From assembly GCA_938084135.1 (NCBI GenBank), contig CALKDS010000058.1:1-55871 (forward strand): a DNA stretch of 55,871 nt. Direction: 5' to 3'. Origin of the DNA: an uncultured Flavobacteriales bacterium. Lineage in GTDB: Bacteria; Bacteroidota; Bacteroidia; Flavobacteriales; Schleiferiaceae. This document shows positions 31,283-53,846 of the stretch, in pieces. Position numbers and translations under genes: made by a program. The notes under the pieces are model-generated. The model was not told where the DNA came from. It ran no database searches and saw only the letters and a list, made by a program, of their open reading frames with translations. Numbering within the stretch: position 1 is the first letter of the stretch; each line of letters opens with the position of its first letter.

Positions 31283-33454
31283 TTAAGGTTTTTTCAAAGC
31301 TAAATATTCGGCAACTTCGGTGTATTTTTCTGTGATTTCATTCCAATTATGTGTTTTTAGTTTATCCTTCCAATCTTGGTCAATGGAGTTTCTCTTGAGC
31401 CAAATCTTTTTTAAGGCAGGATTAGAGGTATTGAAATAAACACCTTTACTTCCGAGGACAGATCTATTGAATATATTATCATGGGCCACAATTTTGCAAT
31501 CAGCTGACATAGCTTGAAGAAGCCCAGGATTTGTCCCGCCAACACTATGTCCGTGAATATATATTGATGAACCCTGCCTCAGGGCTTGGGTTATGATTGG
31601 ATCATATTCACTTTCAATTTGGACAAAATTCAAATTCCCGTGAAATAAGTTTAAAATATTCTGACTGTATCGAGTACTCCAATTGCCAACTATTGCGATA
31701 GGAGTTTCATCGATTAGCTCAGTCAGAATTTCAAGAATATTATTTTCAGGGACTAGTCTACAAATTATTAGTGCATATTTATCTTTTCTTAGGCCAAATT
31801 TTATTAGAATATCATGAAGTTCTTCTTTATTTAGTTTTTTTTGAACCTCTGTGCCATATGATATTTCGCGAATGGGCTTCTCGTAGTTTCTATTGCAATA
31901 ATCTGTTATTCCAGGATTGTCAGAAATAATTATCTCTGACGATTTTACTGCTAATTGCTCTGATAATTTCAGATAATTTCGTACGATACGCGAGTATTTA
32001 CCCCGTTTCCATTCAATTCCATCTAGGTGAACTGCTACATTGGTGCGGTAAAACCATTTTTGAAATAGTAAGGAAGGAGAGGAGCTAGTTGTCCCAAGGG
32101 TTATGTGTGAATCAGGTTTCCACTGATTAATGGATCTTATGCTGATCCAGTCATATATGAATTGTGCAAATGGCCCCATTAGTGTCTCGGGATCCCAATG
32201 AAATTTTCTTAGAATTCCAGGGTATTGGTAATCAGGTTTAGGATGTTTTGATGAGGTACTAACCCAAACTCGATTTCCTGTATCTGATAGCCTTCTGGAA
32301 ACATGGTCAACCATTTCTTCAAACCCTCCATATCTATTAGGCATTCCCCGAGATCCACTCAATGCTATGAATCGGGTTTTAATGGAATAAATATTCTCTA
32401 AACTTTCAGCAGCTTTATGCCATGAGTATTTATCAAGTGATGCATTTTCTTTTGGGTTCTTATGCGCTGATAAAACCGAGTTTGCAATTTGCTCGGCAGC
32501 TGGCATACATAGAAAAACATGTTTTTCGAGTTCTTTGGAGCTTTCAGCATTTTCAGAGAGAATCACTTGGCATTTAGCCTGCAGACCTTCAATTGATGTC
32601 AATCCAAAAGTTTCAAATAATGATGGAATAATTACTCCATATGTTTTCGATAATAATTCAGGTGTTTCCTCACTTTTAATAGCTCTTTTCCAAGAGACTT
32701 TTGCCCCTTGATTTTGCGCTTCTTTTATTGCAAGTTTAAAAGCTTGAGTATATTTTTTATGGTTTGACCCTTCGTCTCCAATTATTGTTAAAGGTTCTGC
32801 AAAACCGCTCTTATGTAGTATTTTCCAAGCATTAATTGCTTCAATTTGATTTTTGATCCCTTCTATTCTTCCCAGAACCACGTAGCCATTACGTTTTTTT
32901 TGATTAGCTACTGATAAGTGCTCTAATCCCGGAGGCACAACTTTGACACTATTCCCTAAACCTGTTATTCGTTTTATTCTATGGGCTTCTGCAGATGTAG
33001 TGGTTAGAATATGATCTGCTGTCCAGGTAAACTTTAATAATGGATTTTTTAAAAAAATTAACCCTATTGCCGGCCATCGATCTTTACCTAAAAGTGCCCT
33101 AAGGAAAACTTTAATATTTTCTTGAATTTGATAAGGTAAATATTTCCATATAAAACCTCTTTTTATTTCATATTCTTTGTAGTCGACTAATATAGAGGAT
33201 ATGACCCACTTGATTTGTGGATATTTTTTTCGAATTTGATAACAATGATATTGGTCAACATATCGCCCCAAGTTTATTGAGTGAATCACATCATATTTAG
33301 ATCTGCGTATTTCTTTATTTAATTTGCTTACAGAAAGAATCAGTATAACATTATGCCCTCTTTTTTTAAGAGCCTTTATAGTCTCTAAAACTTGAACTGT
33401 ATCTCCACCAGATTGATCAAGTAAAGTTTTTCTTGCAAAGAATATGACATTCAC
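31283..33454 (-). CDS. Fused glycosyltransferase: N-terminal GT4-type module plus C-terminal DUF1972/GT4-type module
   Basis: N-half PSLFETFGLTSIEGLQAKCQVILSENAES (GT4-like); C-half starts at about residue 361 with RFIALSGSRGMPNRYGGFEEMVDHVSRRL, typical of the N-terminus of DUF1972 glycosyltransferases. One uninterrupted 723-aa frame, GTG start. Confidence 0.85.
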   Translation of the reverse strand: MNVIFFARKTLLDQSGGDTVQVLETIKALKKRGHNVILILSVSKLNKEIRRSKYDVIHSINLGRYVDQYHCYQIRKKYPQIKWVISSILVDYKEYEIKRGFIWKYLPYQIQENIKVFLRALLGKDRWPAIGLIFLKNPLLKFTWTADHILTTTSAEAHRIKRITGLGNSVKVVPPGLEHLSVANQKKRNGYVVLGRIEGIKNQIEAINAWKILHKSGFAEPLTIIGDEGSNHKKYTQAFKLAIKEAQNQGAKVSWKRAIKSEETPELLSKTYGVIIPSLFETFGLTSIEGLQAKCQVILSENAESSKELEKHVFLCMPAAEQIANSVLSAHKNPKENASLDKYSWHKAAESLENIYSIKTRFIALSGSRGMPNRYGGFEEMVDHVSRRLSDTGNRVWVSTSSKHPKPDYQYPGILRKFHWDPETLMGPFAQFIYDWISIRSINQWKPDSHITLGTTSSSPSLLFQKWFYRTNVAVHLDGIEWKRGKYSRIVRNYLKLSEQLAVKSSEIIISDNPGITDYCNRNYEKPIREISYGTEVQKKLNKEELHDILIKFGLRKDKYALIICRLVPENNILEILTELIDETPIAIVGNWSTRYSQNILNLFHGNLNFVQIESEYDPIITQALRQGSSIYIHGHSVGGTNPGLLQAMSADCKIVAHDNIFNRSVLGSKGVYFNTSNPALKKIWLKRNSIDQDWKDKLKTHNWNEITEKYTEVAEYLALKKP

Positions 33455-47167: not shown

Positions 47168-48511
47168 TTAAAGTAATGCGTTTGCAATAGCAAAATAAAT
47201 ACTTAGCCCAAGTACGTCATTAGTCGTAGTAATAAAGGGTCCAGTAGCAAGGGCTGGATCTATATTATAACGATTCAAAACCCATGGAATTGCTGTACCA
47301 AAAAGGCTGGCAAATAGGACTACTGCAAGCAAAGAGGAACCTACAGCTATTGCAAAAAGAAATCCTTGCCCCATCGCCCAGCTATAAATGACAATTACCA
47401 TTGCGCAGATTAGGCCATTAAATAGACCTACACCTAATTCTCTAGCTAAACGTTTCCATATATTTTTTTGAAGAGTTGAGTTGGCAATTGCTTGAACCAC
47501 AATTGCAGATGATTGAACACCTACATTACCGCCCATAGCTGCAATTAGTGGGATGAAAAATACAATTTGTGGGATCAAAGTAATTTCAGACTTATTTCCA
47601 GAAATCACAGTTGATGTTAATACTCCTCCAAGTAGGCCTATCAATAGCCAAGGCAAACGAGCTTTTGTTGTCTGAAAAAGTCCGTCTTCATTACTTACTT
47701 CATCGCTAAGACCAGACATTAATTGATAATTACTGTCTGCTTCTTCTTGAATGATATCCACTACATCATCCAAAGTTATTCTTCCTAGTAATCTTCCAAT
47801 TTCATCAATAACGGGTACTACAAAAAGATCATACTTTTTCATTACTCTCGTAACCTCTGCATCTTCAGTTGTTGAAGTTACTGAGCGGATACTCTTTTCG
47901 AAAATTTCTGAAATTTCAGTTTTTGTAGATGTTGTGAGAAGCTTTTTTAGAGAGAGAGAGCCTAGAAGTATATCATTATTATCAACCACATAAACCGCAT
48001 GGACTACATCAATTTCTTCAGCTTGGCGACGCATTTCTCTTACGCATCTTAAAACTGTCCAATTTTTGTTCACCTTGACAAGTTCTGTGGCCATTAATGC
48101 TCCTGCAGTTCCCTCAGCATGAGTCAAGAGATCAGCTAAATCTTTTGCAAAATCAAGATCATCAATATTACTTAAAACATCATGTTTTTTCTCCTCTGAT
48201 AATTCTGAAATGATATCCACAGCATCATCGGTATTCATATTATCAGAGACAAGTAGGGCAATTTCTGAGCCTGTCAATGTTTCTAGTATTTCCTCACGTA
48301 TATCTTCATCCGTATAAATTAATATTCCAGAAAGTTTTTCTTTCGGTAAAGCATCTAAAAGCTGAAGAACCTCGTCAATGCTGAAATATGTCAAAATTTC
48401 CGCAATATCAGCAGCATGAAGTTCTACTAATAAATCTTTCAGACCAGAATCTTTAGATTCTAGAACCTGCCTTAAGGACTTAATGTAGTCTTCTGTAACT
48501 TTAAATGACAT
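47168..48511 (-). CDS. mgtE: Magnesium transporter MgtE
   Basis: MgtE N domain, CBS pair and C-terminal TM domain with MGGNVGVQSSAIVVQAIA. Confidence 0.95.
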   Translation of the reverse strand: MSFKVTEDYIKSLRQVLESKDSGLKDLLVELHAADIAEILTYFSIDEVLQLLDALPKEKLSGILIYTDEDIREEILETLTGSEIALLVSDNMNTDDAVDIISELSEEKKHDVLSNIDDLDFAKDLADLLTHAEGTAGALMATELVKVNKNWTVLRCVREMRRQAEEIDVVHAVYVVDNNDILLGSLSLKKLLTTSTKTEISEIFEKSIRSVTSTTEDAEVTRVMKKYDLFVVPVIDEIGRLLGRITLDDVVDIIQEEADSNYQLMSGLSDEVSNEDGLFQTTKARLPWLLIGLLGGVLTSTVISGNKSEITLIPQIVFFIPLIAAMGGNVGVQSSAIVVQAIANSTLQKNIWKRLARELGVGLFNGLICAMVIVIYSWAMGQGFLFAIAVGSSLLAVVLFASLFGTAIPWVLNRYNIDPALATGPFITTTNDVLGLSIYFAIANALL

Positions 48512-49277
48512 TATTGAAACTCTGTGCTAAGGAAATAAATTGGTCAACACTTAATTGTTCAGCTCTTTGCCCAGAAACCTTATCTAAAACCTTGTTATCT
48601 GTAAAATTAAGCGATTTTAATGCGTTCCTGAGAGTTTTTCTTCTTTGGTTAAATGCTGTTTTTACAATTAGCTTAAGAGTATCAAATTTAATATTCGGAA
48701 CTGTGGGTTTTTTTTTAAGTCTAATAACACCACTTTGGACTCGTGGAGGCGGGTTAAAACACTCTGGATTTACGGAAAATAGATATTCTACGTCATAATA
48801 TGCTTGAGTAAGGACACTGGTTATCCCATAATTTTTATTCCCGGGTCCACTAGCTATTCTTACTCCAACTTCTTTTTGAAACATTCCAACCATCTCAGGA
48901 ATTTGATTTCTTCTTGAAAGCATCCAAAACAGTATTTGAGTGGAAATATTGTAGGGATAATTTCCAATCAAAGCAAACTTATTTTCTTTAAATATTTGAG
49001 GTTCCTTCCATTTTAAAAGGTCTTCGTTATATAACTTGTTCGAGATCTCCGGGAATTTGGATTGGAGAACAGGAATACTCTCCTTATCTAATTCTATAGC
49101 ATGAAATTCTACTGATTTCTTGACAAGAAATTGGGTAAGTACTCCCGTTCCCGGGCCCACTTCCAATATTCTGTCATAATTAGAAAAGCTCAGTGAATTA
49201 GAAATTTTTTCTGCAATTTCGATATCTACAAGAAAATGCTGACCCAGTTTCTTTTTTGCCCGAATTTCAGTTTTCAA
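48501..49277 (-). CDS. rsmA: 16S rRNA (adenine1518-N6/adenine1519-N6)-dimethyltransferase
   Basis: KKKLGQHFLVD, ILEVGPGTGVLTQFLV, ALIGNYPYNISTQILF. Confidence 0.97.
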   Translation of the reverse strand: MKTEIRAKKKLGQHFLVDIEIAEKISNSLSFSNYDRILEVGPGTGVLTQFLVKKSVEFHAIELDKESIPVLQSKFPEISNKLYNEDLLKWKEPQIFKENKFALIGNYPYNISTQILFWMLSRRNQIPEMVGMFQKEVGVRIASGPGNKNYGITSVLTQAYYDVEYLFSVNPECFNPPPRVQSGVIRLKKKPTVPNIKFDTLKLIVKTAFNQRRKTLRNALKSLNFTDNKVLDKVSGQRAEQLSVDQFISLAQSFNNVI

Positions 49278-52200
49278 GACCTGCTCTTTTTAAAAGTGCG
49301 TTGACTTTTGGTTCTCTGCCCATGAATGTTTTAAATAAATCAGATGCTTCAATGGCTCCTCCTGAAGTAAGAATTTTCTTGAAATCTTTTGCGACAAGGT
49401 TTTTATTGTCCTCATTGATGAACCGACTAAAAGCATCTGCATCAAGAACTTCAGACCATTTATAGGAGTAGTACCCAGCAGAATATCCCCCTGCGAAAAT
49501 ATGAGAGAATGCAGGAGATATACTTACTTCAGGTTCGTAATTCAATGGCTCTAAGTCAGTTAGAATATTTTTCTCAAGTTCAATATGATTTTGGATTTTC
49601 TCTTTCGGGTCATGCCAGGCTAAATCAAGAAGACCCAATCCTATCTGTCTAATTGTTGCCATTCCTTCTAAAAATTTTTGACTCTTTTTGATATTTGAAA
49701 TTATAGAGTTAGGCATGCTTTCACCTGTTTTATGATGCTTTGCCCATTTTGACAATTCTTCGGGCTGGAAGCACCAGTTCTCCATAAATTGAGATGGTAG
49801 TTCCACAAAGTCCCAGGTGACTGAAGTGCCTGTTAGGCTTGCATATTTACCTTCCCCTAGCATCCCGTGTAAACCGTGCCCAAATTCATGAAAAAGAGTT
49901 AGCACTTCGTTAAAAGTCAAGAGAGGAGGTTGCCCATTTGCTGCAGTACTGAAATTACAAACTAAACTAACGACTGGATAAACTCGTCTACCATTACGAT
50001 CAAATGATTTACGATAGCTAGTCATCCATGCCCCATTTCGCTTTCCTTTTCTGGGATGCCAATCAGTAAGTAAGTGTGAGACCCAATTTCCATTAGAATC
50101 AGTAACATTATAAACTTCAACTTCTGAGTTGTATCCCTCCTGTTTTGAATTGTTAAATTCTAAACCATAGAGCCTTTTTGCTATTGAGAATGCCCAATTT
50201 AAAACTTCATTTAATGGGAAATAAGGCTTGGTGATTTCATCATTATAATTAAGTTTTTCTTTTTTAAATTTTTCTGATATGAAGGCGATATCCCATTTTT
50301 TAATTTCTTTTAAACCCAAAATGTTTTCACCAAATTCCTTTAGTTCAAGGATTTCTCTCTTTGCTGCGGGAAGGGCATTAATTTTTAAAGATTGAAGGAA
50401 GTCATATACAGTTTTGGGGTCTTTGGCCATACGCTCTTCAAGAATAAAATGGGCGTGGCTAGAGAAACCAAGAAGTTTAGCTCTCTTTTGACGTAGCTCT
50501 GATATTTCTAATATTAGTTTTCCGTTGTCATTTGAGTCCCCTCGCGAAGCACGTTGATTATAAGCTATCCAGAGTTCTTTTCGGAGTGTTCTGTCTTTAG
50601 AATAGGTCATAAACCCTGTATATATGGGAGCATCTAAAGTTAAACAATAAGCATTTAAATTCCTTTGTTGACCAGCCGTTTTGAGCATATTTTTAATTCC
50701 TTCTGGTAGGTCGCTAATATCTTTTTCTTTTAATTTTCGAAACCAATTTTCAGTGTCCTTTAAAACATTTTCCGAAAATTCAAGGCTTGCTGAGGAAAGT
50801 CTCTCGTCAATAGATCTTAGTGATGATTGATTTTTTTTATTCAGTAAAGCTCCATTTCTTGAAAAATTCTTAAAATACTTTGACAGGAGCATTAAATCTT
50901 CACTATCTAATTCCTGCCGATTATCATTTATGATTGCGATTCGGTCAAATAATTTTTCATTGGTTAAAATATCATTACTCAGAGCTGATAATGCTGGAGA
51001 TATTGATCTAGTTGCCTCCTGAATTTTCTCATTGGTACATGCAGAATTAAAGTTGAAAAGTAATTCCGTCAATTTTTGAAGGTGCTCATCAGATTCTTCA
51101 AGGGGAACAATAGTATTCTCAAAACTTGGAATTTCTTGATCAGTTGTTATTGAATTGATTCTTTTTTTGACCATTTCAATTTCATCTAAAATGCTGAGTT
51201 CAATGTTATCCATACTTGGGATATTTAAATCAAAGCCATGAACATATGATTGCAAATATTGAAATGATGCATTTAACTTTCCGTTTTTAGTTTGTGTTGC
51301 ATTTGCTAGAATATCATCGGAATCATTATCAAATAATGAAGGGAGAATATGATCAATAAACATATCTCCAAACCCATGAGTTGCATCTAACGGGATAGCG
51401 CTGGGAAGATTATCTACTGCGAGTACTCCAATACTTTTATCACGACCAAATTCCACTTCTTCACCGTTTAAAACGGAATAAAATGGATCATCAAGAGTAC
51501 TAGATCTTAACGTTGTCGAAATTGGACCAGCGATATCGCAACTAATGTCACCGACAAATGATATTCGAAAGTCAGAATGAGAAATATCTTTTAAAGTGAA
51601 AAAACTCGGACTACCTTCTTTCCAAAAATGGCAGGGGACAAAAAGATCTGAACTATTAGCGAATGGTAAAAATCCATTTTTATAAAGTTCAGGGTTTTTA
51701 TAAAATTCAACTTGATCGTATGATTCATCCGAATATCGTTTTACATAGTCTGATGTTTTAAGAATAGTAAACCTGGGTTCCTTTGAGTTAGTATCTAAAT
51801 ATTCTAAAGAACTACACTTTTTGATTGCGGCAGCTTGAAATATTTCTTCAGCCCCTTTAGATACATTACCCGTTCCAGTAATAACTGACTGGAAGTAATT
51901 AGGTAATCTAACCTTATTTAATTCATCCTTAATTCTATCTAATGTCAATAGTTTTTTTGCAGATTCTAAAGAGTAGCGGCCTGTCATTAAACCAAATCCT
52001 CGAAGACTTTCGTAAGCACCTACAAGACCGGCATAATATCCAAATCCAATAAGTCTTTTTTTATTCTTCTTTAGCAATTCCCAGTCGATCAAACGGATGT
52101 TTTTATCTAAACAAGCCTTTAATAAATTTCTATTATACGATTGTTCCTTGTAAGTATGTGAGAAGAAAAAATAAGTTTTTCCTGAAATCAAATCTTTAAC

Positions 52201-52425
52201 GGGAACTTCTTTTACACCTAATAAAATATTGCATTGATTTAAATCAGAACTTATTATGCAACCTGATTTTTTATAATCTAAATCTGGAAAAATTCTTACG
52301 TCACTTGGTTGGACTATTATCTTGATGTCTTTGTTTGCGGAGAGTAAATTCTTACACTGTTGGGGTGTTAAAACGGCCCTCCTGTCCGGAGGCGTTTTTC
52401 CTTCTTTAATTAGTCCAATAATCAT
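49267..52425 (-). CDS. Fusion protein: N-terminal saccharopine dehydrogenase (LYS1-like) plus C-terminal M3 family oligopeptidase/dipeptidyl carboxypeptidase
   Basis: Residues 1-397: MIIGLIKEGKTPPDRRAVLTPQQC..LLGVKEVP..YFFFSHTYKEQ..IGFGYYAGLVGAYESLRGFGLMTGR. Residues ~405-1052: M3 features PSFENTIVPLEES, FNFNSACTNEKIQEATRSISPALSALSNDI, zinc motif HEFGH (49876-49890) and downstream FVELPSQFMENW. Continuous frame. Confidence 0.9.
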   Translation of the reverse strand: MIIGLIKEGKTPPDRRAVLTPQQCKNLLSANKDIKIIVQPSDVRIFPDLDYKKSGCIISSDLNQCNILLGVKEVPVKDLISGKTYFFFSHTYKEQSYNRNLLKACLDKNIRLIDWELLKKNKKRLIGFGYYAGLVGAYESLRGFGLMTGRYSLESAKKLLTLDRIKDELNKVRLPNYFQSVITGTGNVSKGAEEIFQAAAIKKCSSLEYLDTNSKEPRFTILKTSDYVKRYSDESYDQVEFYKNPELYKNGFLPFANSSDLFVPCHFWKEGSPSFFTLKDISHSDFRISFVGDISCDIAGPISTTLRSSTLDDPFYSVLNGEEVEFGRDKSIGVLAVDNLPSAIPLDATHGFGDMFIDHILPSLFDNDSDDILANATQTKNGKLNASFQYLQSYVHGFDLNIPSMDNIELSILDEIEMVKKRINSITTDQEIPSFENTIVPLEESDEHLQKLTELLFNFNSACTNEKIQEATRSISPALSALSNDILTNEKLFDRIAIINDNRQELDSEDLMLLSKYFKNFSRNGALLNKKNQSSLRSIDERLSSASLEFSENVLKDTENWFRKLKEKDISDLPEGIKNMLKTAGQQRNLNAYCLTLDAPIYTGFMTYSKDRTLRKELWIAYNQRASRGDSNDNGKLILEISELRQKRAKLLGFSSHAHFILEERMAKDPKTVYDFLQSLKINALPAAKREILELKEFGENILGLKEIKKWDIAFISEKFKKEKLNYNDEITKPYFPLNEVLNWAFSIAKRLYGLEFNNSKQEGYNSEVEVYNVTDSNGNWVSHLLTDWHPRKGKRNGAWMTSYRKSFDRNGRRVYPVVSLVCNFSTAANGQPPLLTFNEVLTLFHEFGHGLHGMLGEGKYASLTGTSVTWDFVELPSQFMENWCFQPEELSKWAKHHKTGESMPNSIISNIKKSQKFLEGMATIRQIGLGLLDLAWHDPKEKIQNHIELEKNILTDLEPLNYEPEVSISPAFSHIFAGGYSAGYYSYKWSEVLDADAFSRFINEDNKNLVAKDFKKILTSGGAIEASDLFKTFMGREPKVNALLKRAGLEN

Positions 52426-52484: not shown

Positions 52485-53822
52485 TTAATTGTTTCTCGAA
52501 TAGTCCGTTTGGTCCTTGAGTTTCTCCATACTCCATTCCCAATAGGATATCGGAATAGCATCACTATGAAGATTATTTGCTTCAATCGTAGCATTTCTTA
52601 TTTGACTCGCCCAATAATTAATGAGACTGTTTACCTGATTTTGAGAAAAGATTCCATTTTCAACTTGACTTTCAATTTGGCCATATAGAGGCCCTCCATA
52701 GGACACCCAACCTGCAACTAATTTATCACATGCCGCAGATTTTTGGTCCAATAACCCATATTTAAAGGGGTAGCAATTATTCGATGTAATTCCCCAATCA
52801 TCTTTTAGATTGGTAACAGTGTGTTCATTGGTGATTGAGTTCATAAATGCTAGATCTAAATCCCAAGGAATTAGATGTAATTTCTTATTTGTTGGTTCTT
52901 CATACCAATAAAAATTGTGAGGCGCACAGTCTGCTCCAAAACAATACCAATGAAAGGCTCCATCATCATGCCTGATCATTCTATCAATTACAGCATAAGA
53001 AATTATTTCATCCCTATCCATGTAATCGCTGATAATAGGAATTATTTGATTGCTAGATGCATTGGCGATTTGTTCGCCAAATTCTTTTATTGTTTGTACG
53101 GAAGGATTTTCATCTTCATTTGTTTTTAATGCATCGATGTATTCTGATGAGCTTTTTGCTATTCCGTTACTATTTAATGGCCATATTTCTTTGTAAATAT
53201 TTCCGCCTTTATCGTCAAAATTATATTTAGCGAATTGCCCATCTATTTGCTCAGTTAATGCAAATAAGCCCACATAAACATCATTAATAACAAGACGCGC
53301 GTGGACGGATCGGGGGGCAGGAATACCTGCAGCTCTGTAAAGCCAGTAACCCAATCTTTCATGCATTTGAGAGGGATCATGGTTCATTGAATGAAATTGC
53401 AGTTTTTTGAGTTTAAAAAACTTACGAGAAGATTCTTTATAATTTATTTTGATCTTCATCGATAGCTTTGTGCAAGTTTTAAAGCCAGGACCGTTTCCCG
53501 AAGTGCATCCCCACCAAGCGCCATTGGAGCCCTTGTATCTTATACCTACAGAATTCAATGTGTCTCCTTGAAAGATTAATTTACCCTCCGTATAGATTTC
53601 AGCGCTAGGTTCAGAATCAAGGAATGCAAGCGATGAGTCAGGTAAATCTAGCTCAAAAGTGTGAATGCTATTTTGGTCAAAAATATAATCAGAACTTTTT
53701 ACCAAATAATTTGGAGGAGCGTTGGTGTCTATTGGACTAAACGGGTCACCTGAATTATCAGGGATAATATCAGGTTGGCAAGAACAAAGAATGATAATAG
53801 TAAAAAATGTAAAATACCGCAT
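52485..53822 (-). CDS. CotH-family (spore coat protein H-like) putative secreted kinase, lipoprotein
   Basis: Lipobox FFTIIILCSCQPD; SVGIRYKGSNGAW, KLSMKIKINY, LKKLQFHSMNHDPSQMHERLGYWLYRAAGIPAPRSVHARLVINDVYVGLFALTEQID, LHLIPWDLDLAF. Confidence 0.88.
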   Translation of the reverse strand: MRYFTFFTIIILCSCQPDIIPDNSGDPFSPIDTNAPPNYLVKSSDYIFDQNSIHTFELDLPDSSLAFLDSEPSAEIYTEGKLIFQGDTLNSVGIRYKGSNGAWWGCTSGNGPGFKTCTKLSMKIKINYKESSRKFFKLKKLQFHSMNHDPSQMHERLGYWLYRAAGIPAPRSVHARLVINDVYVGLFALTEQIDGQFAKYNFDDKGGNIYKEIWPLNSNGIAKSSSEYIDALKTNEDENPSVQTIKEFGEQIANASSNQIIPIISDYMDRDEIISYAVIDRMIRHDDGAFHWYCFGADCAPHNFYWYEEPTNKKLHLIPWDLDLAFMNSITNEHTVTNLKDDWGITSNNCYPFKYGLLDQKSAACDKLVAGWVSYGGPLYGQIESQVENGIFSQNQVNSLINYWASQIRNATIEANNLHSDAIPISYWEWSMEKLKDQTDYSRNN

Positions 53823-53846
53823 TTGTGTCTCGCACATTTATTTTAA

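Follow-up and report, generated by a model that had tools for sequence, protein, structure and literature searches.

Why would a bacterium with a reduced genome carry a lysine-ketoglutarate reductase (LKR) and an M3 zinc peptidase as one protein? The window analyzed here, a 55,871-nucleotide stretch of DNA, comes from a draft MAG of the family Schleiferiaceae, order Flavobacteriales (1.56 Mb, 88 contigs, approximately 80% complete). On its minus strand, an ATG at position 52425 opens a frame of 1052 codons that ends at a stop codon at 49269-49267 (gene 49267-52425), with no internal stop in either the ORF list or the translation. Pfam detects two domains in the 1052-residue product, AlaDh_PNT_N at residues 5-134 and Peptidase_M3 at residues 605-1049. 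The initial annotation of this locus, a single uninterrupted ORF joining a LYS1/LKR-type enzyme to an M3 peptidase, therefore stands, and the N-terminal half does not belong to the M3 family. That annotation knew of no description of such a fusion; neither did the open-access papers that we searched contain anything relevant. Both enzymes are known, whereas their combination in one domain architecture is new and of moderate interest. We think it probable that the protein is a genuine bifunctional fusion of single origin, derived by inversion, in which the two active sites work independently.

Two enzymes in one reading frame

Which reductase forms the N-terminal half? Residues 1-396 (51238-52425, minus strand), ending with a helix at 386-396, are assigned to LKR by PF05222 at residues 5-134, by matches to the LKR domain of AASS and to Lys1, and by fold. 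A PDB sequence search assigned residues 7-393 to the human AASS LKR/LOR domain, the best match of this half (8dda and 8e8u; E ~1e-43, 152 bits), with yeast Lys1 a weaker match at 61 bits. Foldseek searches with an AF2 model gave the same order, 8e8u/8dda at a TM of ~0.79 and then yeast Lys1. The half has the layout of the AlaDh/PNT superfamily, AlaDh_PNT_N followed by a Rossmann domain, together with the catalytic lysine and histidine. The Rossmann GxGxV motif reads GTGNV at residues 184-188, both glycines and V188 being invariant. K72 (52210-52212, minus strand) aligns with the catalytic lysine of yeast GLKE and human GVK, and H90 (52156-52158, minus strand) with the histidine of yeast FAH and human FFSHT; neither varies in the sequences compared, 17 fused and 13 free.

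The original label of Lys1-like saccharopine dehydrogenase was thus right as to superfamily, but a catabolic LKR fits the match scores better than biosynthetic Lys1 does. Yeast Lys1 shares the superfamily and the aligned catalytic lysine and histidine; it is, however, a single-domain biosynthetic enzyme, whereas the genome studied here has instead a DHDPS gene, of the DAP route. A glutamate-forming saccharopine dehydrogenase gene (PF16653) lies separately, on another contig (C7) of the same genome. The separate dehydrogenase and the presence of DHDPS support a catabolic over a biosynthetic role, and the N-terminal half is predicted from its sequence to be a cytosolic lysine:2-oxoglutarate reductase acting in the catabolic direction. 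The closest known parallels are the bifunctional LKR/SDH enzymes, animal AASS and plant LKR/SDH, which likewise carry an N-terminal LKR domain of this family within one ~120 kDa polypeptide (for the plant enzyme, PMC7253579). The matched LKR domain of AASS even ends near the same residues as that of the fusion (YLQ/YIQ). The C-terminal partner differs: saccharopine dehydrogenase in AASS and LKR/SDH, an M3 peptidase in the fusion, where the dehydrogenase is a separate gene. Pfam reports only AlaDh_PNT_N and Peptidase_M3 on the protein, with no Sacchrp_dh_NADP or Sacchrp_dh_C domain C-terminal to LKR.

The C-terminal half, residues 408-1052 (49270-51204, minus strand), is an M3 oligopeptidase of the Dcp/oligopeptidase A type according to PF01432 (residues 605-1049), NCBIfam and fold. 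PF01432 scores 431 bits, above its curated cut-off, and covers profile positions 1-456 of 457. Residues ~407-1051 were assigned by PDB sequence search to Dcp, oligopeptidase A and thimet-type oligopeptidases, and Foldseek retrieved 5l43, 1y79 and 4ka8 with a TM of ~0.9 on target. With Dcp (1y79), oligopeptidase A and K-26 DCP (5l43) the half shares both the fold and the HEFGH...E motif. H846, E847 and H850 of the zinc-binding HEFGH motif (residues 846-850; 49876-49890, minus strand) and E875, the third zinc ligand of the M3 family (49801-49803, minus strand, within FVELPSQ at 873-879), are the same in all M3 sequences compared, 17 fused and 15 free. The catalytic motifs first proposed for the two halves, K72, H90, HEFGH and E875, have accordingly all been located and are intact. 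NCBIfam scores for oligopeptidase A and Dcp (437.7 and 390.9 bits) fall below the equivalog cut-offs of 927 and 944, and the half is therefore filed as neither equivalog. It is the only M3 domain detected in its genome, where PF01432 occurs once. Some positions characteristic of the free family have changed; at the Q978 position (49492-49494, minus strand), which precedes GGYSAGYY, the residue is Q in free M3 enzymes (H in one) and A or S in every fused copy. Given such changes, the specificity of the fused peptidase may have shifted.

Are both halves still in use? A degenerate half is ruled out: no catalytic residue of either half varies among 17 fused proteins, and dN/dS in nine pairs is ~0.06-0.20 in both halves, near 0.1 in each. 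These values argue that both activities have probably been retained, in what would be a cytosolic bifunctional protein. The AF2 model of the whole chain, built with 57 aligned homologues, has a mean pLDDT of 90.7 and a pTM of 0.81.

Distribution and origin of the fusion

A full-length, stop-free fusion is found in 18 genomes, 16 of genus g1 (including the source genome) and two of the related genus g12. We infer that g1 is GTDB TMED14, a placeholder genus of Schleiferiaceae (PMC7214798). The 17 further copies are 47-97% identical to that of the window, the most distant at 47-48%, and include independent MAGs from separate projects (ERR598983_bin.51, SRR5976592_bin.43, CPC97, BACL7 and 'Owenweeksia sp. 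TMED14'). The remaining members of g1 have fragments or nothing, several of the fragments starting or ending at contig ends. Across 88 genomes of the family, complete LKR frames exceed 1,050 aa in g1 and g12 versus ~400-520 aa in the other genera. LKR (~400 aa) and M3 are separate genes in the family's other sampled genera, as they are in the listed genomes of the class and phylum. No independent LKR-M3 fusion appeared elsewhere in Bacteroidota among the matches listed for 295 class and 296 phylum genomes, in which LKR frames outside the fused clade reach at most 521 aa. A check of sister genomes thus returned the fused gene and not two ORFs, and the fused g1 and g12 genomes yielded neither a full-length LKR nor a full-length M3 paralogue outside the fusion. 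Chance read-through is ruled out by the 17 further fused genomes. The window does come from a draft MAG of 88 contigs, but 17 other genomes, drawn from several projects, carry the same stop-free fusion at 47-97% identity, which makes an assembly, binning or sequencing artefact next to inconceivable.

How did the two genes come together? All fused copies form one clade in the tree of each half (SH-aLRT 99 for LKR, 100 for M3), which indicates a single fusion event. Gene order in unfused genera preserves the two loci apart. M3 stands in the order M3-rsmA-mgtE in g4, g9, g10, g13, g15 and g35 (M3-rsmA also in g11), and LKR lies tail-to-tail with an rpe-rpoD-pnp-accD-fba block in g4, g9, g10, g11 and g15. 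In g9 (G029, G140) the LKR and M3 loci are ~22 kb apart and divergent. The order in g1 is LKR-M3-rsmA-mgtE, with LKR upstream of M3 on the same strand; another 8-16 kb upstream lies rpoD-pnp-accD-fba, oriented relative to M3 just as it is in g9. Within the window, the ancestral M3 neighbor rsmA (ksgA-like; 48501-49277, minus strand) overlaps the 3' end of the fusion by 11 bases, and mgtE (47168-48511, minus strand) follows as the next gene of the ancestral block.

Starting from a g9-like ancestor, inversion of the segment between the M3 5' end and the LKR 3' end would give the g1 order and join the coding regions directly. Such an event would have set the LKR 3' end against a truncated M3 5' end once, in the common ancestor of g1 and g12. 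A local DNA inversion, itself a reconstruction, is the most likely origin of the fusion. In the LKR and M3 gene trees the fused clade is closest to g11, or to g5 plus g11, and not to g9; the pre-fusion arrangement is for that reason also reconstructed. Most genes of the g9 interval were not found upstream of the g1 fusion, and rpe lies beyond fba in g1, so loss and movement must have followed. Adjoining M3 in g9 (loci L046, L185, L186 and L187; G029:C25, G140:C1) is a fatty-acid-oxidation-like operon, whose genes did not turn up ahead of the g1 fusion. In the window, a CotH-kinase gene (52485-53837, minus strand) immediately precedes the fusion; it is present in the nearest relatives (L001-L005) and absent from that place in more distant fused genomes.

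The initial annotation had instead proposed that a stop codon was lost between neighboring genes. A compact, reduced genome (1.56 Mb in draft) in which neighboring genes overlap would suit such a mechanism. However, LKR and M3 are adjacent in no unfused genome examined, their ancestral neighbors differ, and their orientation demands rearrangement. Moreover, free M3 enzymes (~680 aa) begin with an NPLL..TPF N-terminus (NPLL..F.TPF) that is gone from the fused forms, replaced by LKR and ~11 residues, while LKR is retained to about YV.G. Plain stop-codon loss between adjacent genes thus seems unlikely, gene order pointing to inversion; an origin in two steps, inversion followed by deletion or stop-codon loss, is possible.

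Does the gene still yield one polypeptide? The junction (residues 397-407; 51205-51237, minus strand), which the AF2 secondary structure places after the final helix of LKR and before the first helix of M3, bears out the very short linker noted at the outset, with ~11 residues separating the domains. An internal start or proteolysis at this junction could release separate LKR and M3 proteins, in which case the fusion would matter at the DNA/RNA level only. This would agree with the junction's pLDDT of 75-79, lower than most of the chain, with its faster evolution in a codon alignment of 17 fused genes, and with column 399 of that alignment, which is ATG in six of the 17 and TTG in two. Against it, residues 385-435 span exactly 51 residues in 17/17 aligned fused proteins, an indel-free junction unlike a neutral spacer, and the free-M3 N-terminus is gone. 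Nor is a start codon conserved at any junction column shown. M405 (ATG 51211-51213, minus strand), put forward as the relic start of a once separate peptidase gene, is private to this genome: its codon is ACG in a 97%-identical sister, GCC in an 87% relative, and GCA, TCA and others elsewhere. The methionine arose by a substitution specific to this species, and homology to M3, in altered form, already starts ahead of it. The codon alignment rules out M405 as a relic start, along with any conserved internal start. We consider two separate products improbable, and the fusion product presumably has no internal start and is not cleaved.

Possible advantage of joining LKR to an M3 peptidase

What would the cell gain from this arrangement? 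The LKR domain would begin lysine breakdown by converting lysine to saccharopine, and the separate saccharopine dehydrogenase would take the next step, forming glutamate. The M3 domain, the only M3 zinc oligopeptidase detected in the cell, would trim short cytosolic peptides. To our knowledge, LKR and M3 oligopeptidases are not known to interact.

One explanation is metabolic coupling, whereby the peptidase half frees lysine or lysine-rich short peptides and the lysine passes preferentially to LKR. Both halves look active and have never been seen separated in the fused clade, the pTM of 0.81 suggests that the domains sit in a defined position relative to each other, and a saccharopine route is plausible given the PF16653 gene. 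However, M3 enzymes are known mainly for releasing dipeptides or short peptides, not free lysine, and a pTM without PAE is no proof of an interface. Most relatives use LKR and M3 unfused and unlinked, and no lysine-recognition change specific to the fused forms was identified. Strict fused-specific diagnostic sites number only three (17A, 139E and 789W), too few to make the case for a new interface. Coupling is therefore a rather doubtful proposition, and we find it hard to credit that the M3 half evolved towards lysine-containing peptides and hands its product to the fused LKR. If true, substrate coupling would constitute a dedicated entry point for the catabolism of peptide-derived lysine in these marine bacteria.

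The two active sites are more probably independent, the benefit lying in shared expression and compactness rather than in substrate transfer, and purifying selection would preserve the fusion as a single gene in a reduced genome. Genome size is 1.3-1.8 Mb in the fused clade versus 1.3-4.5 Mb in the family's other genera. A second lineage-wide fusion, of two glycosyltransferases, suggests that fusions are tolerated here, in which case compactness or co-expression would account for the LKR-M3 gene better than a special metabolic link.

The LKR-M3 gene is a conserved, clade-defining fusion whose gene order can be compared before and after the event, and its origin is unusually readable. It is consequently a clean example with which to ask why unrelated metabolic genes become fused in reduced marine genomes, and whether the outcome is neutral or coupled. 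It also carries a warning for annotation. When the protein is given a single name, 'M3 peptidase' or 'saccharopine dehydrogenase', half of it goes unseen, and either the lysine pathway or the peptidase would seem to be missing.

The glycosyltransferase fusion lies at 31283-33454 of the window (minus strand) and encodes a 723-aa protein of two modules, Glycos_transf_1 at residues 184-344 and a DUF1972/GT4-like module from residue 365. It recurs in 13 other g1 genomes as frames of ~717-749 aa, and in a relative from the same order (G040) the two glycosyltransferases are adjacent separate genes. In one member of g1 (G003:C26:57274-59628) the fusion matches in two pieces with a gap between them, within one frame of 790 aa.
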